In this document: positions 2,280 to 20,152 of the stretch, one piece after another
Layout: each line of letters opens with the position of its first letter
Position numbering within the stretch: position 1 is the first letter of the stretch
Notes under the pieces: model-generated
The model's database searches: none
What the model saw: the letters and a program-made list of their open reading frames with translations, nothing else
What the model was told of the DNA's origin: nothing
Assembly (NCBI RefSeq): GCF_000689395.1
Contig: NZ_HG966617.1
Coordinates: 229,719 to 287,420 of the forward strand
DNA length: 57,702 nucleotides
Direction of reading: 5' to 3'
Source: Candidatus Phaeomarinobacter ectocarpi
Lineage (GTDB): Bacteria; Pseudomonadota; Alphaproteobacteria; CGMCC-115125
Translations under genes and position numbers: made by a program

Positions 2280-2918
2280 ATGAGCGCACTCGTGATTGCC
2301 ATTGATGGCCCCGCCGCAGCCGGCAAGGGGACCATTGCTAAAGATCTCGCGAGCAAGCTGGATCTGGCCTATCTCGACACGGGCTCTCTTTACAGAGCTG
2401 TGGCGCATGCGGTGATCCTGGCGGGTGGTGACCCGGCGGACGATGCAGACGCTGCCAGGGCGGCTGAAACACTTGATATTGAAGCCATCGACCAGACCGC
2501 CATCCGCACCCGGGAAGTGGGGACCGCAGCCTCCCTCGTGGCAGCCAAGCCGCAGGTGCGCGCCCAGCTGCTGGAAACCCAGCGCCGCATCGCCAAAAAT
2601 CCACCCGCCGGCAAGGGCGGGGTGGTGATGGATGGGCGGGACATCGGCACGGTTGTGTGCCCTGACGCAGACGTAAAACTCTTTGTTACGGCCTCTGATG
2701 ACGCGCGTGCGCATCGGCGGTGGCTGGAACTGGTCAAGTCGGACCCCGAGCTGACCCAGGCACAGGTGCTGGCAGACCTCACCGAAAGGGACCGCCGGGA
2801 CAGTGAAAGAGCCACGTCGCCCCTGGTGCAGGCTGCGGATGCAACCTTGCTCGACACCACCAATTTGAGTATAGAAGCGGCGATCCAAGCGGCGCTCGAT
2901 ATTGTCGGGCGGCGATAG
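2280..2918 (+). CDS. cmk: cytidylate kinase
   Basis: A 212-aa cytosolic kinase that phosphorylates CMP and dCMP with ATP. The P-loop GPAAAGKGT is at residues 10-18. MDGRDIGTVV at about residue 118 and the RRDSERATSPL segment near residue 170 are diagnostic of CMP kinases. Length matches the family. The order aroA-cmk-rpsA is widely conserved in Proteobacteria and supports the call. Confidence 0.97.
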   Translation: MSALVIAIDGPAAAGKGTIAKDLASKLDLAYLDTGSLYRAVAHAVILAGGDPADDADAARAAETLDIEAIDQTAIRTREVGTAASLVAAKPQVRAQLLETQRRIAKNPPAGKGGVVMDGRDIGTVVCPDADVKLFVTASDDARAHRRWLELVKSDPELTQAQVLADLTERDRRDSERATSPLVQAADATLLDTTNLSIEAAIQAALDIVGRR

Positions 2919-3163
2919 TCACGTTTCTTAAGGGAGTTGCTCTTAACTAACCGCTGTCTGACGCCACTCATCATATTGCCGTCGCAAGGTGTGAAAGACC
3001 CCGAAAAACGGGAGATTTCGCGCCTTTTTTCGTGGGGTACATGCCTCTGAATGATGGGTCAAACAACGATCAAAAAAGCTGCAGTGGGGTTAGCCCCACG
3101 CGGAAGACCGCCGGAGACAACCGAGCGGCCCGAAAACATACAATGCTACTGGAGCAACCATTT

Positions 3164-4873
3164 ATGTCTCAAACTGCGGCCGATCCCGGCCTTAACCCGA
3201 CGACCGACGATTTTGAAGCCCTCCTGATGGAGAGCCTCGAGACCACTCACATGACGGAAGGCTATGTCGTCAAAGGCACGGTCACTGCCATCGAAAACGA
3301 CATGGCAATCGTGGATGTGGGTCTCAAGACAGAAGGCCGCGTGCCTCTGAAGGAATTTGCAGCCCCCGGCCAGGAACACGGTCTGACGGTTGGTGGTGAA
3401 GTGGAGGTCTATCTCGAGCGCGTGGAAAACGCGATGGGTGAAGCCGTCCTCTCCCGCGACAAGGCCCGTCGCGAAGAAGCCTGGGAGCTTCTCGAAAAGG
3501 CTTTCGAAAAGAACGAACGCGTCGACGGCCACATCTTTGGTCGCGTCAAAGGCGGCTTCACGGTGGATCTGGGCGGCGCTGTCGCCTTCCTGCCGGGCAG
3601 CCAGGTCGATATCCGCCCAGTGCGCGATATCACACCGCTTCTCAACATCACCCAGCCCTTCCAGGTGCTGAAGATGGACCGCCGCCGCGGCAACATCGTG
3701 GTGTCCCGCCGTGCCGTGCTTGAAGAAACACGCGCAGTACAGCGTGCGGAACTCGTCGAGAACCTCACCGAAGGTCAGGTCCTCGAAGGCGTGGTCAAGA
3801 ACATCACCGATTACGGTGCATTCGTGGATCTGGGCGGCGTCGACGGCCTCCTGCACGTCACGGACATTGCGTGGCGTCGCGTGAACCACCCGACAGACGT
3901 TCTGTCCATCGGCCAGACGGTCAATGTGCAGGTCATCAAGGTCAACCAGGAAACCCAGCGTATTTCGCTTGGCATGAAGCAGCTTGAGGCTGATCCCTGG
4001 GATGGCGTTGCTGCCAAATACCCTGTTGATCTCAAGATCAAGGGCCGCGTGACCAACATCACTGATTACGGCGCGTTCGTTGAGCTGGAACCAGGTGTTG
4101 AAGGTCTTGTCCACGTCTCTGAAATGAGCTGGACCAAGAAGAACGTACATCCAGGCAAGATCGTTTCCACTTCTCAGGAAGTCGAAGTGATGGTGCTGGA
4201 AGTCGACCCTGTGAAGCGTCGCATCTCGCTTGGTCTCAAGCAGTGCCTCGACAACCCATGGTCATCCTTCCTGGTCAACTTCCCGCAGGGCACTGAAGTT
4301 GAAGGCGAGATCAAGAACATCACCGAATTCGGTCTGTTCGTTGGCCTCGACGGCGACGTGGACGGCATGGTCCACCTCTCCGACCTCGACTGGAATCGCT
4401 CTGGCGAAGAAGCCATTGCCGACTACACCAAGGGCGACATGGTGAAAGCCACCGTTCTTGACGTGGACCCGGACAAGGAACGCATCTCCCTTGGCATCAA
4501 GCAGCTGGGCGGCGATCCCTTCGAAAGCGTTGGCGACATCCGCCGCGGTGAAATCATCACCGTGACGGTCACCAATGTGGAGGAAAACGGTCTTGAAGTG
4601 ACAGTGGGTGAAGAGCAGTTCACCTCCTACATCCGTCGCTCCGAACTGAGCCGTGATCGCGCTGACCAGCGTCCTGATCGCTACAATGTTGGCGACAAGA
4701 TTGATGCCCGCGTCACCCAGATCGACAAGGCGTCGCGCCGCGTCTCCCTGTCGATCAAGGCGAAGGAAATCGCTGAAGAGAAGGAGGCCGTCGAACAGTA
4801 TGGCTCTACCGACTCTGGCGCCTCCCTCGGCGACATTCTGGGTGCAGCCCTCAAGGGCAAAGACGACGACTAG
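3164..4873 (+). CDS. rpsA: 30S ribosomal protein S1
   Basis: A 569-aa RNA-binding ribosomal protein that helps load mRNAs onto the 30S subunit. Six S1 (OB-fold) repeats are visible, each with the pattern ITDYGAFVDLG or a variant plus R-I-SLG(M/I)KQ. The reading frame is open further upstream, to 3032. The start at MSQTAADPG is chosen because GGAG precedes it by 9 nt and because homologues begin here. A 245-bp leader separates it from cmk, and the gene ends in a strong hairpin terminator. Confidence 0.97.
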   Translation: MSQTAADPGLNPTTDDFEALLMESLETTHMTEGYVVKGTVTAIENDMAIVDVGLKTEGRVPLKEFAAPGQEHGLTVGGEVEVYLERVENAMGEAVLSRDKARREEAWELLEKAFEKNERVDGHIFGRVKGGFTVDLGGAVAFLPGSQVDIRPVRDITPLLNITQPFQVLKMDRRRGNIVVSRRAVLEETRAVQRAELVENLTEGQVLEGVVKNITDYGAFVDLGGVDGLLHVTDIAWRRVNHPTDVLSIGQTVNVQVIKVNQETQRISLGMKQLEADPWDGVAAKYPVDLKIKGRVTNITDYGAFVELEPGVEGLVHVSEMSWTKKNVHPGKIVSTSQEVEVMVLEVDPVKRRISLGLKQCLDNPWSSFLVNFPQGTEVEGEIKNITEFGLFVGLDGDVDGMVHLSDLDWNRSGEEAIADYTKGDMVKATVLDVDPDKERISLGIKQLGGDPFESVGDIRRGEIITVTVTNVEENGLEVTVGEEQFTSYIRRSELSRDRADQRPDRYNVGDKIDARVTQIDKASRRVSLSIKAKEIAEEKEAVEQYGSTDSGASLGDILGAALKGKDDD

Positions 4874-4931
4874 TCGTTTCGCACAGAAAATGACGTTTCG
4901 TTCATAGAGCGAAGCTGACAGAAAATCATTG

Positions 4932-4967
4932 TGGCGGCAGGGAAAACTCCCTGTCGCCATTTTGGTT
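4932..4967 (+). terminator. intrinsic terminator of rpsA
   Basis: An 11-bp stem (TGGCGGCAGGG paired with CCCTGTCGCCA, one G-T pair) closes a 6-nt loop and is followed by TTTTGGTTTT. It lies 58 bp after the rpsA stop. Confidence 0.85.
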
Positions 4968-5159
4968 TTGCGGCCTGGCGCCCCACCGATCAGCGTTAAA
5001 CCCTGTGCGTCAAAATGACACCGCCGTCATGTTTTCCAGTACGCTCAAGGCTCGAGATGGATAAGCCTTTGAAAATGCTCGCCTTGTTGCGTTCACGCAA
5101 CTTGACGCCCCCTGCCTCCTCGGGCATCGTTACGGCTTGGCACTAGGGACAAGGGCCGG

Positions 5160-5677: not shown

Positions 5678-6064
5678 GTGACGTTGAAGACCTGGTTCAT
5701 TCTCCTTCCCTGCGTACTCGTTGGCGTTGTGCTGACCCTGGCCAACATGGTGCCGGTGCAGTTCAGCCTTGATCCCTTCTCATCCACCCGTCCGGCGCTG
5801 GCCTTCACCGTGCCGCTGATCGTGGTCATCATGGGTGCCTTTCTGGCAGGGCTTCTGGCCGGTGGCCTTGGGGCGTGGGTTGGCCAGGGCGGACACCGCA
5901 AGGGAGAACGTCAGGCCAAGCGCGAATTGAAGCGCGTGCAAAAGCAGCAGGGCGCTGCCAATTCCAACAGCGTTGAAGGCGCAGGAACAGCTCTTGCCGT
6001 TGCGGGCGCAACCGCACCGGCCTTATCGGATCAAACGGCAAATGCGTCTCGTCACGGCGGCTGA
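5678..6064 (+). CDS. LapA/DUF1049-type inner-membrane protein
   Basis: A 128-aa protein with two hydrophobic segments (about residues 5-23 and 43-66) around a short loop with VPVQFSLDP. A Lys/Arg-rich stretch and an Ala/Ser-rich tail follow. This is the layout of the DUF1049 (lipopolysaccharide assembly protein A domain) family, which often follows ihfB in alphaproteobacteria. The start codon is GTG at 5678; a TTG two codons on is possible. The end overlaps the next gene by 23 bp, so the two are probably translationally coupled. Confidence 0.7.
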   Translation: MTLKTWFILLPCVLVGVVLTLANMVPVQFSLDPFSSTRPALAFTVPLIVVIMGAFLAGLLAGGLGAWVGQGGHRKGERQAKRELKRVQKQQGAANSNSVEGAGTALAVAGATAPALSDQTANASRHGG

Positions 6065-7022
6065 GATAAATCAGGCCCTGGACGTCCGCTCCTTGATGGA
6101 GCGGTTGCGCTCGGCCTTTCGTGACGACATCGCCAACCCGGCACGCACCCTCCACCACATTGAATCAAGCCTTGGCCCCGATGAGCCCGGTGCCGGCGAC
6201 CTGATGGTCATGCCCGCCTGGGTGCGCGGTACGGCCCGGTCCGGCGATATGAGCGGGCGGCGCGGCTATATCGGCGTCAAGGTCCAATCCGTTTTCCCTG
6301 ACAATCGCACCAAGGGCATCCCGTCGCTCACGGGCGTCTATGTGCTGATGTCTGGCCGCACGGGCGAGCCATTGGGTCTGCTGGATGCCCCGACCCTGAC
6401 CGCGTGGCGCACGGCGGCAGCATCTGCCCTGGCCGCTACCTATCTGGCTCGCCAGGACGCTGAACGCCTCTTGGTGGTCGGCAGCGGCGCGCTGGTGCCC
6501 CATCTCATCAAGGCCCATGCGGAAGCCCGTCCCATCTGCAACGTGCTGATCTGGAACCGCACACCCGCCACGGCAGAAAAACTCGCCAAACGCCTGACTC
6601 GGCCTGATTTGAAGGTCGCCGCCACAACGGACCTGGAAGGTGCTGTGCGCGGCGCGGATGTCATCTGCACGGCCACCGGCAGCACCCAGCCGCTCATCAA
6701 GGGAGAGTGGCTGCAGCGCGGCGTCCACCTGGACTGTGTCGGTGGCTACCGGCCGGACATGCGGGAGGTGGATGACGAGGTGGTATCGCGAGCCCGCGTC
6801 TTTGTGGATACCCGCACGGGCGCCATGAGCGAGGCAGGCGACATTATCGCCCCCCTTGAGAGCGGCGCAATCACCACTGAAGACATTACAGCTGATCTCC
6901 ATGATCTGGCCCGTGGCGACAGGGCCGGGCGGCGCTACCACGACCAGATCACCCTGTTTAAGTCGGTTGGTGTCGCGCTGGAGGACCTAGCAGCGGCCAC
7001 ACTCGCGTTTGAGCGGACATAA
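6042..7022 (+). CDS. ornithine cyclodeaminase / mu-crystallin family protein
   Basis: A 326-aa NAD(P)-dependent enzyme of the OCD/mu-crystallin family, whose members deaminate, cyclise or reduce amino or imino acids. The family core LTAWRTAAASALAATYLA is at about residues 121-138. The Rossmann segment VVGSGAL follows at about 146, and the later ATGSTQPL strand lines the cofactor site. The start is placed at MRLVTAAEI because homologues begin there. The substrate cannot be told from sequence: ornithine, alanine, lysine-derived imines and ketimines are all possible in this family. A palindromic repeat element begins 6 bp after the stop. Confidence 0.85.
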   Translation: MRLVTAAEINQALDVRSLMERLRSAFRDDIANPARTLHHIESSLGPDEPGAGDLMVMPAWVRGTARSGDMSGRRGYIGVKVQSVFPDNRTKGIPSLTGVYVLMSGRTGEPLGLLDAPTLTAWRTAAASALAATYLARQDAERLLVVGSGALVPHLIKAHAEARPICNVLIWNRTPATAEKLAKRLTRPDLKVAATTDLEGAVRGADVICTATGSTQPLIKGEWLQRGVHLDCVGGYRPDMREVDDEVVSRARVFVDTRTGAMSEAGDIIAPLESGAITTEDITADLHDLARGDRAGRRYHDQITLFKSVGVALEDLAAATLAFERT

Positions 7023-7028
7023 CCCTCT

Positions 7029-7119
7029 ACGTGTCCCCGGACTTGATCCGGGGCCTACTCGCAGATGCCACACATCACAGCGAAAGAGAGTGGACCCCGG
7101 ATCAAGTCCGGGGACACGT
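7029..7119. repeat. ~90-bp palindromic element, copy A
   Basis: Two perfect 25-bp inverted arms (7029-7053 and 7095-7119) flank a 41-bp centre that begins CCTACTCGC and ends GAGAGTGGA. Each arm is itself a hairpin, CCCCGGA-cttga-TCCGGGG. The same element recurs at 18212-18334, 27673-27762, 32310-32400 and 34315-34405. This copy begins 6 bp after the stop of the ornithine-cyclodeaminase-like gene. Confidence 0.92.
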
Positions 7120-7267
7120 GAGGGTGATTGAATTCCGGGTCATCCAAATCTGAAAATACAAAGCCTGACTCCGCGCTTTTCCCGCGTTATGCTTTTCCCG
7201 ACACGCTGACGACCGCCACCAAAAGAGCGGCGCAGCTGGAGGAAACTGATGAGGGGAGGCGGGCTTC

Positions 7268-8134
7268 ATGAGCAACGCCATTACGATTGATCGGCTGACA
7301 CCGACCATTGGCGCGGAAATTTCCGGCGTCGATATGAGCAAGCCGCTGGGCAATGAGACCTTTGCTGCCGTCCATGATGCGCTGATGGCCCACGGGGTCA
7401 TCTTCTTCCGCGATCAGGACATCACACCGGCGCAGCACAAGGACTTTGCCAGCAAGTTTGGTCACCTGCAGGTGCATCCATTCGCGCCCAATCACAGCGA
7501 AGAGCACCCTGAGATCATCGTCATCGAGCATGGTCCAAAGCGCAAACCCGACCTCAACAACTGGCACACCGATGTGACCTTCATGCAGGAGCCGCCGCTG
7601 GGCTCCGTGTTGCACGCCAAGATGATGCCGGAAACCGGTGGCGACACCATGTGGGCGAGCATGTATGCCGCCTATGAAGCCCTGTCAGACCGGATGCAGC
7701 GCATGCTGGGCGAGCTGACCGCGGTGCATGACTATGAGCACGTGTTCGGCAAGAGCGGCCGGCTGTACCGCAATCAGGCTGATGGCAAGATGCAGTCCGA
7801 GCGCGAAAAACATCCGCCTGCGGAGCATCCCGTCATTCGTACGCACCCGGTCACAGGCCGTCAGGGTATTTTCGTGAACTCGAGCTTCACCACCCACATC
7901 AAGGACATGAAGCAGAAGGAAAGCGATGCGCTGCTGGCCTTTTTGCATGAGCATGTGAAGCAGGCTGAATTCCAGTGCCGCTTCCGCTGGCAGAAAAACT
8001 CCGTTGCCTTCTGGGACAACCGCTGCACCCAGCACTATGCCATTGCAGATTATTTCCCTGAGCACCGTCAGATGCACCGCGTCACCATTGATGGTGACCG
8101 GCCCCAGTATCGGTCAGAGCACCGACCCAACTAA
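7268..8134 (+). CDS. TauD/TfdA family Fe(II)/2-oxoglutarate dioxygenase
   Basis: A 288-aa non-haem iron oxygenase. The iron ligands are visible as H100-x-D102 (NNWHTDVTF) and the distal His in MHRVTIDGDRP near residue 270. The 2-oxoglutarate-binding Arg is probably the Arg of HRVT. Family members hydroxylate taurine, alkylsulfates, aryloxyacetates or similar small substrates, and the substrate here is unknown. It is 27 bp upstream of a MAPEG gene, so an operon is likely. The start at 7268 follows GAGGGGAGG-rich sequence, a good ribosome site. Confidence 0.88.
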   Translation: MSNAITIDRLTPTIGAEISGVDMSKPLGNETFAAVHDALMAHGVIFFRDQDITPAQHKDFASKFGHLQVHPFAPNHSEEHPEIIVIEHGPKRKPDLNNWHTDVTFMQEPPLGSVLHAKMMPETGGDTMWASMYAAYEALSDRMQRMLGELTAVHDYEHVFGKSGRLYRNQADGKMQSEREKHPPAEHPVIRTHPVTGRQGIFVNSSFTTHIKDMKQKESDALLAFLHEHVKQAEFQCRFRWQKNSVAFWDNRCTQHYAIADYFPEHRQMHRVTIDGDRPQYRSEHRPN

Positions 8135-8161
8135 CTCCCCCACACAAGAAGAGGAAAGATA

Positions 8162-8617
8162 ATGGAAGAACTCATCAACAACGTGACGGCGTCAGCAACC
8201 TATTCAGGTGATCTGCTTGCAGCGCTTTATGTCATGGCGGCCTGGACTGCCGTGACGTGGATTCTCATGACCTTCGTGCGCCTGGGCGCCATGAACGAAG
8301 CCGGTCTGACACCGGACGATGCCAAGCACACAGACGCGCTGAGTGTCCTGCCGACGCGCCCGCGCCAGATGGCCGACAACTACAACCACCTGTTTGAAGT
8401 GCCGGTGATCTTCTACGCCGTGGTGCTGGCCATTCTGGTGAGCGGCCGTGCGGATGAAATCCACATGTATTGCGCCTGGGGCTTTGTCGCCTCGCGCGTC
8501 ATTCACTCCCTGTGGCAGTGGACCAGCAATGCGGTCGCCATCCGTTTCCCGCTCTTCGCGCTGGGCTGGATTCTGCTCATGGTCATGATCGTCCGCGAAT
8601 TGCTGGCAGTGCTCTAG
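8162..8617 (+). CDS. MAPEG family membrane protein
   Basis: A 151-aa protein with about four hydrophobic helices. The MAPEG-type segment RQMADNYNHLFEVPVIFYAVV near residues 63-83 and the following ASRVIHSLWQW segment place it in the MAPEG family, a group of membrane proteins of eicosanoid and glutathione metabolism. Bacterial homologues mostly have no proven function. The preceding AGAGGAAAGATA is a strong ribosome-binding site. Coupling to the upstream dioxygenase suggests a shared lipid or xenobiotic role, but that is inference. Confidence 0.85.
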   Translation: MEELINNVTASATYSGDLLAALYVMAAWTAVTWILMTFVRLGAMNEAGLTPDDAKHTDALSVLPTRPRQMADNYNHLFEVPVIFYAVVLAILVSGRADEIHMYCAWGFVASRVIHSLWQWTSNAVAIRFPLFALGWILLMVMIVRELLAVL

Positions 8618-8692: not shown

Positions 8693-8889
8693 GAACCGGG
8701 AAGATGCCGATGGTCAGGTAAAGACCACGAGAAAAAAAGACCCTTCCATTTCCAACACCAGTCGCCACCAGGATAAATCGCCCCGCTATGTCAGCGGTCG
8801 ATGGGTGGGGCTCTGCAAATCGATACGCGCTGGAAATTGCGGCCGGGCACGTTCAAAGTCGCGCAATACGCCAAAGAGGAAACGTCATC

Positions 8890-11415
8890 ATGAAACTGGA
8901 TCTCGCAAGCACCGCATTTCTGGCGCAACTGGCATCGCTGGGCGCGCCCGGTTTCCATGAGATGGAGCCCGAAGAGGCGCGTCTCGCGGGTGGCCAGATC
9001 GCTGAATCCTATCCGCCGGGCCCGGACATGGCATCGGTGCGGGATGAAACCATTACGGGCTCTGATGGTGCCGGGTTCCGGGTGCGCGTCCTCTCTCCCA
9101 CTGAGACCCCGCGCGCGGCACTCATTTTCTATCACGGCGGCGGCTGGGTGCTGGGCGACATTGATCAGTACGACACGCTGGGCCGCCAACTTGCCAAACG
9201 CACAGGGGCTGCCGTCATCCTTGTCGATTATCGCAAGGCCCCTGAGAATCGTTACCCAGCGGCAGCCCATGATGCCTATGACGCGCTGACATGGGTCGAC
9301 GCCAACATCACGTCCATTGCTGGAAAGCGCGTGCCGATCATCGTGGCGGGCGACAGCGCGGGCGGTAATCTCGCCGCGGTCGTCGCACAGCGGGCAAAGG
9401 CTGAGAATGGACCGGACATCTCGCTGCAGCTTCTCGTCTATCCCGTCACCGATGGGGCGATGAACACGCCCGGCTATGCCAACCCGGACAATCAGTTGCT
9501 GCTGAATACGCCGCTGATGGAATGGTTCTGGGATCATTACGCGCCGAACAAAAAAGACCGCGAAGAGCCCGGCGCGTCACCTGCGCGTGCAAAGGATCTG
9601 TCCGGTCTGCCACCTGCGCTGGTTGTGACCGCAGAATATGACGTGCTGCGCGATGAGGCCGAAGCCTATGGCGAAGCAATGCAGGCAGCGGGCGTCCCCG
9701 TCACGATCAAACGCTTTGACCGGCAGATGCACAATTTCTTCGCCATGCCCGGCCTGTTGCCAGCCGCCGCGACAGCGCTTGAATATGTCGGCCAGCAGAT
9801 CGACCGGCATCTGGCCACATCGAGCGAGGTTGACGCCGTGATCGTCGGCGCTGGTTTTGCGGGCATGTATCAGCTTCACAAGCTGCGCCAGCAGGGCCTG
9901 TCGACCCGCGTGATCGAGCGGGCCGATGATGTGGGTGGCACATGGTACTGGAACCGTTATCCCGGCGCCCGTGTGGATATTGAAAGCATGGCGTACTCGT
10001 TCTCGTTCGATGAGGAACTTGAACAGGAGTGGACGTGGAAAGAGAAATATTCACCCCAGCCTGAAATTCTTGAATACGCGCAGCATGTGGCCGACCGGTT
10101 CGATCTGCGCCGTGACATCACCTTTGAAACCAGCGTCACGCGCGCGCTCTACAATGAAGATACCGCGCGCTGGAATGTCTACACTGACTCAGGCGAGGTG
10201 ATCTCTGCGCAATATCTGATCATGGCGACAGGGTGTCTGTCTGCAATCAAGACGCCGGATATTCCCGGTGCAGATACGTTCAAGGGCGAGACATACATCA
10301 CCGGCCTCTGGCCCCATGAGGGCGTTGATTTTTCCGGCAAGAAAGTCGCCGTCATCGGCACAGGCTCCTCCGCCATTCAGGCCATTCCGCACATTGCGGA
10401 GCAGGCAGACCAGCTAACGGTGCACCAGCGCACACCGGCCTATTCCATGCCGGCGTTCAACCGCCCGCTGGAAGAAACTGAAATTCAGCAGATGAAGACC
10501 ACCTATCGCGACTATCGCGAAGCCCAGCGCAATCATCTGGCAGGTATTCCGTATCCTGAGCGTAACCTGATGCCAGCCGCTGCCGAGGGTGACAATGAAC
10601 GCAAGGCCCGTCTGGAAACGGCATGGGAATCCGGCATCCTCACCGCGCTCACGTCGTCATACATGGACGTGCTCTCCAACCAGGACGCCAATGATCTGGT
10701 CTCCGAGTTTGTGCGTGACAAAATTCGTGCCCGTGTGAAAGACCCTGAAACCGCTGAAACGCTGGCCCCTAAGACCTATCCGCTGGGCACCAAGCGCCCC
10801 TGTCTCGATACCAATTATTATGAGACCTACAATCGGGACAATGTGCGGCTTGTCGATCTGCACAAGACCCCCATTCAGGAGATCACGCCAACCGGTGTGC
10901 GCACCACCAGCGGTGAAGACAGCTATGATGCGATTGTGTTTGCCACGGGCTTTGATGCGATGACGGGTGCGCTGGAGCGCATCGATATTCGCGGGATTAA
11001 CGACATGGCCCTGAAGGATAAATGGGCCGACGGGCCACACACCTATCTGGGGCTGAGCGTGGCGGGCTTCCCGAACCTGTTCACGATTACGGGCCCGTCC
11101 AGCCCCTCAGTGCTCAGCAACATGATCGTCTCGATTGAGCAGCATGTTGACTGGATCAGCGATTGCATCGCGTGGATGCGGGACAATGGTCACACCACCA
11201 TCGCGGCCACTGAAAAGGCCGAGACGGAATGGGCGATCCACAATGAGCAGGCCGCCAATCTGACGCTCTTTCCCCAGGCCAATTCCTGGTACATCGGCGC
11301 CAATGTCCCCGGCAAACCGCGCACCTTCATGGCCTATATTGGCGGCGTGGACGTCTACCGTCACATTTGCGACTCCATAGCGTCAGACAATTATCAGGGG
11401 TTTGAAACGGCATAG
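8890..11415 (+). CDS. fused alpha/beta-hydrolase + FAD-dependent (Baeyer-Villiger-type) monooxygenase
   Basis: An 841-aa two-domain enzyme in one uninterrupted frame. Residues 1-310 are a hormone-sensitive-lipase-type hydrolase: oxyanion HGGGW 82-86, nucleophile Ser156 in GDSAGG, Asp251 and His281. Residues 315-841 are a class B flavoprotein monooxygenase: FAD site GAGFAG 320-325, NADPH site GTGSSA 490-495, and the Baeyer-Villiger-typical KRPCLDTNYYETYN segment. Only a few residues link the domains. The fingerprint FxGxxxHxxxWP reads FKGETYITGLWP, with Ile470 in place of His. A monooxygenase making an ester from a ketone plus a hydrolase cleaving it would be a self-contained catabolic module; this is inference. 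The ATG at 8890 is chosen because it starts the hydrolase domain. Confidence 0.9.
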   Translation: MKLDLASTAFLAQLASLGAPGFHEMEPEEARLAGGQIAESYPPGPDMASVRDETITGSDGAGFRVRVLSPTETPRAALIFYHGGGWVLGDIDQYDTLGRQLAKRTGAAVILVDYRKAPENRYPAAAHDAYDALTWVDANITSIAGKRVPIIVAGDSAGGNLAAVVAQRAKAENGPDISLQLLVYPVTDGAMNTPGYANPDNQLLLNTPLMEWFWDHYAPNKKDREEPGASPARAKDLSGLPPALVVTAEYDVLRDEAEAYGEAMQAAGVPVTIKRFDRQMHNFFAMPGLLPAAATALEYVGQQIDRHLATSSEVDAVIVGAGFAGMYQLHKLRQQGLSTRVIERADDVGGTWYWNRYPGARVDIESMAYSFSFDEELEQEWTWKEKYSPQPEILEYAQHVADRFDLRRDITFETSVTRALYNEDTARWNVYTDSGEVISAQYLIMATGCLSAIKTPDIPGADTFKGETYITGLWPHEGVDFSGKKVAVIGTGSSAIQAIPHIAEQADQLTVHQRTPAYSMPAFNRPLEETEIQQMKTTYRDYREAQRNHLAGIPYPERNLMPAAAEGDNERKARLETAWESGILTALTSSYMDVLSNQDANDLVSEFVRDKIRARVKDPETAETLAPKTYPLGTKRPCLDTNYYETYNRDNVRLVDLHKTPIQEITPTGVRTTSGEDSYDAIVFATGFDAMTGALERIDIRGINDMALKDKWADGPHTYLGLSVAGFPNLFTITGPSSPSVLSNMIVSIEQHVDWISDCIAWMRDNGHTTIAATEKAETEWAIHNEQAANLTLFPQANSWYIGANVPGKPRTFMAYIGGVDVYRHICDSIASDNYQGFETA

Positions 11416-18409: not shown

Positions 18410-20152
18410 TTATTCGGCGGCCTGCAGCGAAACCACCTTGCCGTCATCGGTCAGCCGCTCGCCTTTGGGGTCTGCGCTTTTCTTTGCGGGCTTCTTGGCC
18501 GCCGCCTTGGCTTTTGCCTTAGACGTTGTCTTGCGCTTGGCCTTGGTTTTCGTCTTGGCCTTCGCCTTCGCCTTCGTTTTGGCTTTTGCCTTCGTTGCGG
18601 TCTTGGCCTTGGAGACAGTGGTGCCATCCCGCTCGCTCAGGCTTGCGTCAGACTGATGTGCAGGCACCGCAGAGCGTGACAGGGAGGCCCGCTTCTTGGG
18701 GGCAGCCTTCATGGCCTTCTTGAAGGCCGGAGACGCTGCGCGCTTCTTGGCGGCAGCCATCAACTCGTCGAAGCTTTCTTGGATGCAATCAGCAAAGAAG
18801 CTCGGATCCGGGATCATCTCGCGGCATGACGTCAGGGAGATGGTGATCTGACCGCCATAGCTGAATACCGGCATGATGAGGCCCATGCCATCGAGGATCG
18901 GGCCGGTCCCAAACTGTGTGACCAGACGCGCGCCGGTCATGTAGAGCGGCACATTGGGGCCGGGCACATTGGTGATGACGCAGTTCATCGGCAGCTTCAT
19001 CCGGTTGGCGAGGCCAAGACCGGTGTAAAGACGCGCCGCCATGCCCGCTGTCGTGGAGGGAATGAACTGGGTGTAGTCCGTCATCGTCTTGGCGCCAACG
19101 GCGTTGGTCAGTTCCTTGGAGTTGGTGGTGTGTTCAAACACCGTCTCAAGGCGCTTCATCGGTTCTTCGATGTCAGTACCGATGGCCACCGTCATGGCAG
19201 ACACCTGGTTGCCGGCAGATTTCTGCTTGTCCGGTGACCGGACGGAAATCGGCGTCATGGCGACCAGTGAATCGCCGGGAAGCTCTTCCTTGTCCGCCAG
19301 ATATTTGCGCAGGGCACCGCCGCATACCGTCAGCACCACATCGTTGATGGTGGCACCAGGCACAGTCGTGCGGATGAACTTCAGATCATCAATGGCAAAG
19401 CTGCGGCCATCAAAGACCCGGTGCGGCGAGACGCAGCCATTGAAGCGGGTACGTGGCACGGGGCCTGACGACTTGAGATCACCCGTCGACATTTTGAGGC
19501 CAGCGCGGGCGAGCGCCGGCACGGAGCGGGCAACCACATTGGCAAGACGGAAAGGCTGAACCGCCGTGTGACCGGCCGTGCGGGCCAGAAGTTCCATGGC
19601 CAGCGGTTCACGCTCGGGCACCCATGGCTCCTTGGGCGGCGCTGGCTTGGCATCCGGCTTCAGGTCATGGATGGCCGCAACCATTTCAGCACCGGACACA
19701 CCGTCAATAATGGCGTGGTGCACCTTGGACAGGATCGCGAAGGATCCTTTGGGGATGCCTTCCACATTGTCGAGGCCTTCAATCACGTAGAATTCCCACA
19801 GGGGTCGGTTGGTATCGAGCGCGCGCGAATGCAGGCGCGACGCCTGAATGCACAGCTGGCGCCAGTCACCGGGGTGCGGCAGCGCGATATGGCGAACGTG
19901 GAACTCGATGTCGAAGTCCGGATCCTCAAACCAGTAGGGATGATCCAGATTGGCTGGCACGAAAGCCAGGCGCTGACGGAAGGCGCGCGACATATGCAGG
20001 CGCGCCTCGTAGTTCTTCAGAATTTCCTTGAAACCAAGCACGCCGCCCTCGACGGTGGATTGGTCGTAAATGGCCACTGAGCCGATGTGCATGGGCGCAT
20101 TCTTCGTCTCAAAATACAGAAACGAGGCGTCCATTCCGCTGAGTTGTTCCAT
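18410..20152 (-). CDS. wax ester synthase / diacylglycerol acyltransferase with Lys/Ala-rich tail
   Basis: A 580-aa WS/DGAT enzyme that esterifies acyl-CoA with fatty alcohols or diacylglycerol to make storage lipids. The N terminus MEQLSGMDASFLYFE and the active-site HHAIIDG (residues 145-151) are diagnostic. The conserved NVPGPNVPLY segment is near residue 395. Typical enzymes end near 460-480 aa. Here about 110 more residues follow, with a block of repeated KAK/KTK units (about 514-558) like the tails of histone H1-like and PhaF-like proteins. The start is supported by GGGGAG 8-12 bp upstream. The gene appears to be monocistronic. Confidence 0.93.
   Translation of the reverse strand: MEQLSGMDASFLYFETKNAPMHIGSVAIYDQSTVEGGVLGFKEILKNYEARLHMSRAFRQRLAFVPANLDHPYWFEDPDFDIEFHVRHIALPHPGDWRQLCIQASRLHSRALDTNRPLWEFYVIEGLDNVEGIPKGSFAILSKVHHAIIDGVSGAEMVAAIHDLKPDAKPAPPKEPWVPEREPLAMELLARTAGHTAVQPFRLANVVARSVPALARAGLKMSTGDLKSSGPVPRTRFNGCVSPHRVFDGRSFAIDDLKFIRTTVPGATINDVVLTVCGGALRKYLADKEELPGDSLVAMTPISVRSPDKQKSAGNQVSAMTVAIGTDIEEPMKRLETVFEHTTNSKELTNAVGAKTMTDYTQFIPSTTAGMAARLYTGLGLANRMKLPMNCVITNVPGPNVPLYMTGARLVTQFGTGPILDGMGLIMPVFSYGGQITISLTSCREMIPDPSFFADCIQESFDELMAAAKKRAASPAFKKAMKAAPKKRASLSRSAVPAHQSDASLSERDGTTVSKAKTATKAKAKTKAKAKAKTKTKAKRKTTSKAKAKAAAKKPAKKSADPKGERLTDDGKVVSLQAAE

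Follow-up and report, generated by a model that had tools for sequence, protein, structure and literature searches.

An esterase joined to a Baeyer-Villiger monooxygenase with an altered fingerprint in Candidatus Phaeomarinobacter ectocarpi

A single open reading frame of Candidatus Phaeomarinobacter ectocarpi joins an esterase, almost without a linker, to a complete Baeyer-Villiger monooxygenase (BVMO) of the phenylacetone monooxygenase (PAMO) type, in which isoleucine stands at the place of the fingerprint histidine. The frame occupies positions 8890-11415 of the window, by which we mean the whole stretch of 57,702 nucleotides that was analyzed. Each half belongs to a known family; the novelty lies in their being combined, in the repeated origin of the combination and in the absence of the fingerprint His. 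Comparison with relatives suggests that nature has joined a BVMO and a hydrolase at least three, and probably four, times and in both orders. The protein is best explained, in our judgment with good likelihood, as a single-chain cascade that would turn a ketone, with NADPH and O2, into an ester and the ester into an acid and an alcohol. Cascades that couple a BVMO to a hydrolase attract interest in biocatalysis. In the open-licence literature searched, no natural fusion of a hydrolase with a BVMO was seen.

The fused gene and its two active sites

The frame runs without interruption from the ATG at 8890 to the stop codon at 11413-11415. Its features are as follows.

8890-11415, + strand: hydrolase-BVMO fusion gene, 841 residues, a single open frame
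directly 5' of the ATG at 8890, + strand: AGAGGAAAC, a plausible ribosome-binding site read from the sequence
8890-9804, + strand: hydrolase domain (HSL-like, Abhydrolase_3), residues 1-305, from Pfam and the match of the model to Est8
9133-9147, + strand: HGGGW oxyanion-hole motif, residues 82-86, seen in the translation
9355-9357, + strand: nucleophile Ser156 (GDSAG), from the alignment of fused rows
9640-9642, + strand: triad Asp251, from the same alignment
9730-9732, + strand: triad His281, from the same alignment
9805-9825, + strand: junction, residues 306-312, from the AlphaFold2 model
9826-11412, + strand: type I BVMO domain, PAMO-like, residues 313-841, from the match to 1w4x and the model
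9847-9864, + strand: first Rossmann motif GAGFAG (FAD), residues 320-325, from a motif check
9934-9978, + strand: second BVMO motif GGTWYWNRYPGARVD, residues 349-363, from a motif check and the PAMO alignment
10279-10314, + strand: altered fingerprint FKGETYITGLWP, residues 464-475, with Ile470 at PAMO H173
10357-10374, + strand: second Rossmann motif GTGSSA (NADPH), residues 490-495, from a motif check
10792-10797, + strand: Lys635-Arg636, aligned with PAMO K336-R337 (the catalytic Arg)

Translation from a further in-frame ATG, at 8788, would lengthen the protein by 34 residues; the start at 8890 is favored because in the relatives L009 and L010 the frame opens just four codons ahead of the equivalent start. 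Residues 78-284 match Abhydrolase_3 (Pfam, E 1.8e-71), with HSL-type esterases such as Est8 as the closest solved structures to this half, while the residues from 317 match FMO-like/Pyr_redox_3 and the top solved structure for the second half is PAMO (1w4x, E 1.8e-191, residues 304-838). Together with the triad, these matches bear out the reading of the earlier note, made from the letters alone, that a complete Ser-Asp-His hydrolase and a flavin monooxygenase share one frame. That note had also allowed for a frame error at the junction. A frame error or assembly artefact is ruled out because 14 other distinct fusions have the same hydrolase-BVMO order (type A), among them a copy at 97% identity in a genome of the same genus.

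Structure prediction, which the earlier note had proposed for both active sites, places each half on a known enzyme. In an AlphaFold2 model built on a 65-row alignment (mean pLDDT 93.3, pTM 0.71), the second half superposes on PAMO (4d03) with an rmsd of 1.1 over 530 residues (Z 54.6), the BVMO fold being predicted across the whole domain, and the first on the esterase Est8 (4ypv) with an rmsd of 1.5 over 306 residues (Z 47.3). The last hydrolase helix is modeled at 291-308 and the first FAD-domain strand at 311-319, so that only residues 309-310 would separate the domains, in keeping with the near absence of a linker that had been read from the sequence. The mutual placement of the two domains is uncertain at a pTM of 0.71, and channelling between them thus has no geometric support.

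The hydrolase half has all the marks of an HSL-type esterase, namely HGGG, GxSAG, the Ser-Asp-His triad and, in the model, the alpha/beta hydrolase fold. Its score against the narrower LipP1 family (NCBIfam NF058653), 331.6 bits, falls below the curated cut-off of 350.

In the oxygenase half, the codon at 10297-10299 is ATC, which makes residue 470 Ile, as the earlier note had it, and this residue stands opposite PAMO H173. Realignment cannot restore the His because there is no gap near this place in the alignment with PAMO, and the idea of a shifted alignment was dropped. Every other fixed position of the fingerprint FxGxxxHxxxW[P/D] fits. The remaining oxygenase motifs are likewise intact: GAGFAG, GTGSSA and the Lys-Arg at 635-636 are present, and the sequence at 349 conforms to the type I BVMO motif [A/G]GxWxxxx[F/Y]P[G/M]xxxD. 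The equivalents of PAMO D66 and R337 are D363 and R636. As the strict fingerprint rule fails, the domain is called a PAMO-type BVMO with an altered fingerprint on the grounds of homology, fold and catalytic residues.

Two other assignments were also considered. An N-hydroxylating monooxygenase was rejected, since Lys_Orn_oxgnase (PF13434) matches residues 386-519 only, with 22.8 bits against a cut-off of 21.3, and is outdone by FMO-like (53.9 bits) and by PAMO (E 1.8e-191); by their structure matches the homologues are PAMO-type BVMOs, and this doubt of the earlier note can be set aside. Pentalenolactone D synthase PtlE (NF045818) scores 302.4 bits against a cut-off of 1100.

At the place of PAMO Cys65 the fused protein has Val362 (9973-9975). 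A Val is found there in 6 of 15 type A rows, 6 of 17 unfused rows without the His, 1 of 24 rows of type B (defined below) and 7 of 115 His-bearing rows. The PAMO Cys65Asp mutant, whose solved structure is 4d03, presumably acts as an NADPH oxidase. The same genome carries a further, unfused BVMO-like gene (L094, G000:C1:819711-821141; 36% identity), which retains the fingerprint His and has extra residues between the fingerprint W and the final P.

Recurrence and origins of the fusion

A contig scan of genomes, from which the best 80 of 239 relatives were taken as loci, and whole-genome searches together gave a comparison set of 173 distinct BVMO domains. This set includes some near copies, and since for many loci the flank extends over just 1.5 kb, some rows counted as unfused and unpaired may in fact be paired. 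Fifteen rows, the window's own included, are of type A, and those with names are alphaproteobacterial; the 14 others answer the proposal that the protein might represent a subfamily. The BVMO-hydrolase order is found in 25 rows, with named carriers among gammaproteobacteria, Hydrogenophilaceae, Ilumatobacter and other actinobacterial bins, and Mesobacillus (L078). A further 34 rows are neighboring hydrolase and BVMO genes, and the other 99 are unfused BVMOs.

Two more samples were examined. The later one was fetched after the pattern had been seen and comprises 42 loci, of which three are repeats and 39 were counted. Its eight new fused rows, two of them cut at a contig end yet showing both halves, are not new independent fusions because they lie inside known clades. 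Among the rows without the His that were read as unfused, L284 and L286 fall inside type A, both being truncated by a contig end, and L249, likewise cut, ends in 75 residues that match the beginning of the type B hydrolase with 60% identity (E 8e-28). The plasmid set consists of 17 loci examined among the 30 matches listed of 1313 matching records, and holds 16 gene pairs and one fusion, in BVMO-hydrolase order, on Bradyrhizobium plasmid pCB82_1. For this last gene (L292, Bradyrhizobium sp. CB82, 2528-5005) the annotation apparently sets the start within the FAD-binding region; the protein as annotated lacks GxGxxG and begins after it, whereas the open frame is longer (878 residues, with the match from 323), and either the start is mis-called or the gene is damaged.

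The active sites are retained throughout. The equivalents of Ser156 and Asp251 are Ser and Asp in 15/15 type A rows, 25/25 rows of BVMO-hydrolase order and 9/9 later fused rows; that of His281 is His in 15/15, 24/25 and 9/9, the sole exception being L043, whose frame runs off the sequence end, and the full triad is thus present in all nine later rows. On the oxygenase side, the Arg636 equivalent is present in every row counted (15 rows of type A, 24 of type B, 115 with the His and 17 unfused without it) and that of Lys635 in all but three, which have Arg; the equivalents of PAMO D66 and R337 are invariant in the groups counted, among them all 15 rows of type A, all 24 of type B and all 17 unfused ones without the His. 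Both halves of the window's protein are under strong purifying selection. For the hydrolase and the BVMO half in turn, dN/dS is 0.036 and 0.033 in comparison with the copy from the same genus, 0.057 and 0.057 with L009, and 0.124 and 0.088 with L011.

Trees were built without column 470, with a quick tree used rather than a thorough IQ-TREE search. Type A forms a single clade (support 100) and groups with the unfused L028, L032, L033 and L035, all of them His-bearing (support 96). The BVMO-hydrolase fusions of type B form a separate single clade (support 99), and L030 and L165, which are unfused and carry the His, are loosely placed in the vicinity of the two clades. The cut rows L249, L284 and L286, labelled unfused, split these all-fused clades, and each of the two is one clade once this is allowed for. 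The Mesobacillus fusion L078, in which the His is kept, lies among Bacillus gene pairs (support 100), and the Bradyrhizobium fusion falls outside both clades as one long row with a low placement support of 52. By these placements, at least three and probably four fusions would be independent, with the His kept in one.

Fusion out of neighboring genes is the likely route, since the type A hydrolases group with those of neighboring hydrolase>BVMO pairs (SH-aLRT 97) and the L078 hydrolase with those of BVMO>hydrolase pairs (96). The type B hydrolase is more distant, and no gene pair stands at its base in the hydrolase tree. The unfused arrangement can be seen in Modestobacter L032, whose BVMO lies beside type A (support 96): the hydrolase stop is followed by about 80 bases, a ribosome-binding site and the BVMO start. 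The hydrolase and BVMO trees disagree in places, with the hydrolases of Dehalococcoidia pairs near type A and their BVMOs elsewhere, and the partners must therefore also have been re-paired or moved between lineages.

The missing histidine

No other alignment column sets the two fusion families apart from their His-bearing relatives as well as residue 470 does. All 15 type A rows, aligned as the earlier note had suggested, lack the His (I in 6, V in 6, Q in 2, N in 1), and the 25 rows of BVMO-hydrolase order have F in 14, V in 4, L, Y and S in 2 each and H in 1. The His is present in 33 of the 34 gene pairs and in 83 of the 99 other unfused BVMOs of the 173-row set. In the later sample it is missing from all eight new fused rows (6 Q, 2 Y) and present in 27 of the 31 rows read as unfused, L251 being the only true unfused exception. 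The plasmid fusion has R, and 14 of the 16 plasmid pairs have the His, the exceptions being Marinibacterium (F) and Rhodococcus sp. DMU1 (S). Over all samples, and with near copies counted, the His is missing from 48 of 49 fused rows. This pattern goes beyond what the earlier note had read from the letters, as does the existence of a family with the reverse domain order.

A strict tie between His loss and fusion was dropped as an idea, as unfused BVMOs without the His exist and L078 is fused with it. An alternative possibility, to which we give serious weight though somewhat short of an even chance, is that the two coincide, the His being generally labile in the PAMO-like clade. Such a coincidence would bear on the absent His alone and would not conflict with a cascade. 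It agrees with the absence of the His from 16 of 99 separate BVMOs, from 1 of 34 and 2 of 16 gene pairs and from L251, as well as with its retention in L078, and is less easily squared with the 48 of 49 fused rows or with the eight of eight later ones, though these fall within the A and B clades already known. Regains came out ambiguous in a parsimony count, and a count that excludes regain was used instead; both leave out the Bradyrhizobium fusion. The latter gives 11 losses, 9 of which are unconnected with fusion and count as background losses, in favor of a labile residue. Against this, the chance that the stems of both A and B bear a loss is about 0.0016 at the whole-tree rate or 0.0135 at the rate of the enclosing clade, both calculated post hoc. 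Two results suit coincidence: independent pairs yield p 0.5 in a sign test, for which significance is out of reach, and among 16 unfused genes without the His that were examined, 15 have no hydrolase homologue in their vicinity. The link between fusion and His loss is thus suggestive, not proven, because the His has also been lost in some unfused enzymes.

It is possible, if rather doubtful, that joining an esterase alters what the oxygenase needs, and that the His was for this reason lost in parallel in fusions of opposite order. If so, with the ester removed at once, a role of the His in domain motion or in holding NADP could have become needless or harmful, and the fusions of parallel loss would be cascade enzymes with altered cofactor kinetics. 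In either case, the fusions provide a natural set of His-free BVMOs in which the role of the fingerprint His can be tested. They also bear on how BVMOs are counted. A 2015 census describes its sequences as curated by confirming both fingerprints (PMC4498894), and would by that rule have omitted the His-free fusions; surveys that require the full fingerprint would miss hydrolase-BVMO fusions of this kind.

Proposed reaction and comparison with known systems

In the cascade that we favor, the C-terminal PAMO-like domain would use FAD, NADPH and O2 to insert oxygen beside the ketone carbonyl and make an ester, and the N-terminal HSL-type esterase would split the ester into acid and alcohol, pulling the oxygenase step forward as it takes the ester away. 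The fusion would have arisen from neighboring genes with the same two activities, and the oxygenase would operate without the canonical His, as the fungal BVMOAf1, with Gln, does. Both activities are inferred, as are the order in which the steps run, the way the fusion came about and the substrate, which by relation to PAMO and steroid monooxygenase would most likely be an aryl or a medium or long alkyl ketone. That the fusion may perform two consecutive steps had been predicted from the sequence, and the prediction is strengthened by the side-by-side hydrolase and BVMO genes in 34 of 173 rows and 16 of 17 plasmid loci, some of them with adjoining alcohol dehydrogenases.

The gene neighborhood gives further, though limited, indications. 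Among 11 type A loci, neighbors are shared only between close relatives (the window with G003, and L017 with L029, one gene also in L012) and no evident catabolic operon surrounds the fused gene. This pattern suits a self-contained module, and a substrate guess based on an operon was dropped. Among ten neighbor proteins scanned, an alcohol dehydrogenase of L009 best fits a ketone pathway; at E 1e-12, a homologue of it was found in L009 only, among 66 loci of at least 7 kb. In 6 of the 13 annotated plasmid loci, a dehydrogenase stands directly beside the hydrolase/BVMO couple: an NDMA-dependent alcohol dehydrogenase with an aldehyde dehydrogenase ahead of both genes in one, an alcohol dehydrogenase between them in another, a short-chain dehydrogenase after the couple in two, an alcohol dehydrogenase on the opposite strand in one and a glycerol dehydrogenase in one. 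The other seven have no such dehydrogenase directly beside the couple. These neighbors fit, without proving, a route from alcohol to ketone to ester to acid and alcohol.

Within the window, a group of same-strand genes upstream of the fusion (5973-8617, +) encodes an ornithine cyclodeaminase-like reductase, a TauD-family dioxygenase whose score exceeds the NCBIfam cut-off for taurine dioxygenase, and a membrane protein of the MAPEG family; the group is common to the same-genus G003 and absent from the other type A loci compared. About 7 kb downstream lies a wax ester synthase/diacylglycerol acyltransferase gene (18410-20152, -; Pfam WS_DGAT_cat, E 7.4e-68), and ester metabolism may matter in this organism.

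The steps might also run in reverse: the esterase would first split an ester to free a hydroxy- or keto-compound, and the ketone so released would be oxidized by the BVMO. This is improbable. The hydrolase does resemble broad HSL-type esterases, and as both domain orders occur, order in the chain does not fix the order of reaction, but alcohol dehydrogenases able to make ketones adjoin some of the paired relatives. A hydrolase acting after the BVMO is also the commoner known logic, as in the HAPMO, CHMO and acetone monooxygenase pathways. The same order, from ketone through ester to acid, with the BVMO and the esterase as separate enzymes, has been proposed for long alkanes in Thalassolituus (PMC6304351), and a Rhodococcus BVMO is reported to convert 2-alkanones to alkyl acetates (PMC12724338).

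Equally hard to credit is an oxygenase that is a weakly coupled NADPH oxidase, or oxidizes S or N, beside a hydrolase usefully acting on an unrelated ester: a change of the His reportedly lowers activity in CHMO and abolishes it in HAPMO (cited in PMC3762062) and the PAMO C65 place is Val here and in 6 of 15 type A rows, yet the catalytic Arg and Asp are invariant in the groups counted, the dN/dS of the BVMO half is low, BVMOAf1 is active with Gln at the place of PAMO H173 (PMC3762062), and the repeated joining to the kinds of hydrolase found beside BVMO genes would be left unexplained. A BVMO can thus work without the His, as the activity of BVMOAf1 indicates, and the single-chain cascade remains the preferred reading.

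Among known systems, the closest to the BVMO half are PAMO of Thermobifida fusca (1w4x; about 54% identity, fold within 1.1 A) and steroid monooxygenase (4aos; 49% identity, 1.7 A). The catalytic Arg and Asp and both Rossmann motifs of PAMO are retained in the fused protein, but His173 of PAMO is Ile470 here, and the solved chains of the two enzymes, with 542 and 549 residues, each consist of a BVMO domain alone, whereas the fused protein carries a hydrolase ahead. The bacterial HSL esterases Est8 (4ypv) and LipP1 (NF058653) have HGGG, GDSAG and the triad in common with the hydrolase half, which fits Est8 to 1.5 A over 306 residues, although the solved chain of Est8 lacks a BVMO domain. The BVMOAf1 of Aspergillus fumigatus likewise has a predicted BVMO domain fused to another domain and the change H173Q, and was active when cloned in truncated form; it is fungal, 42% identical to PAMO, and joined at its C-terminal end to what its authors call a putative polynucleotide synthase domain, not to a hydrolase (PMC3762062). 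The same two families as in the fused protein, in either order, are found as neighbors in Rhodococcus sp. DMU1, Marinibacterium pLA6_004 and Modestobacter L032, where, unlike in the fusion, they make two proteins, and the His is present in 47 of the 50 pairs seen.
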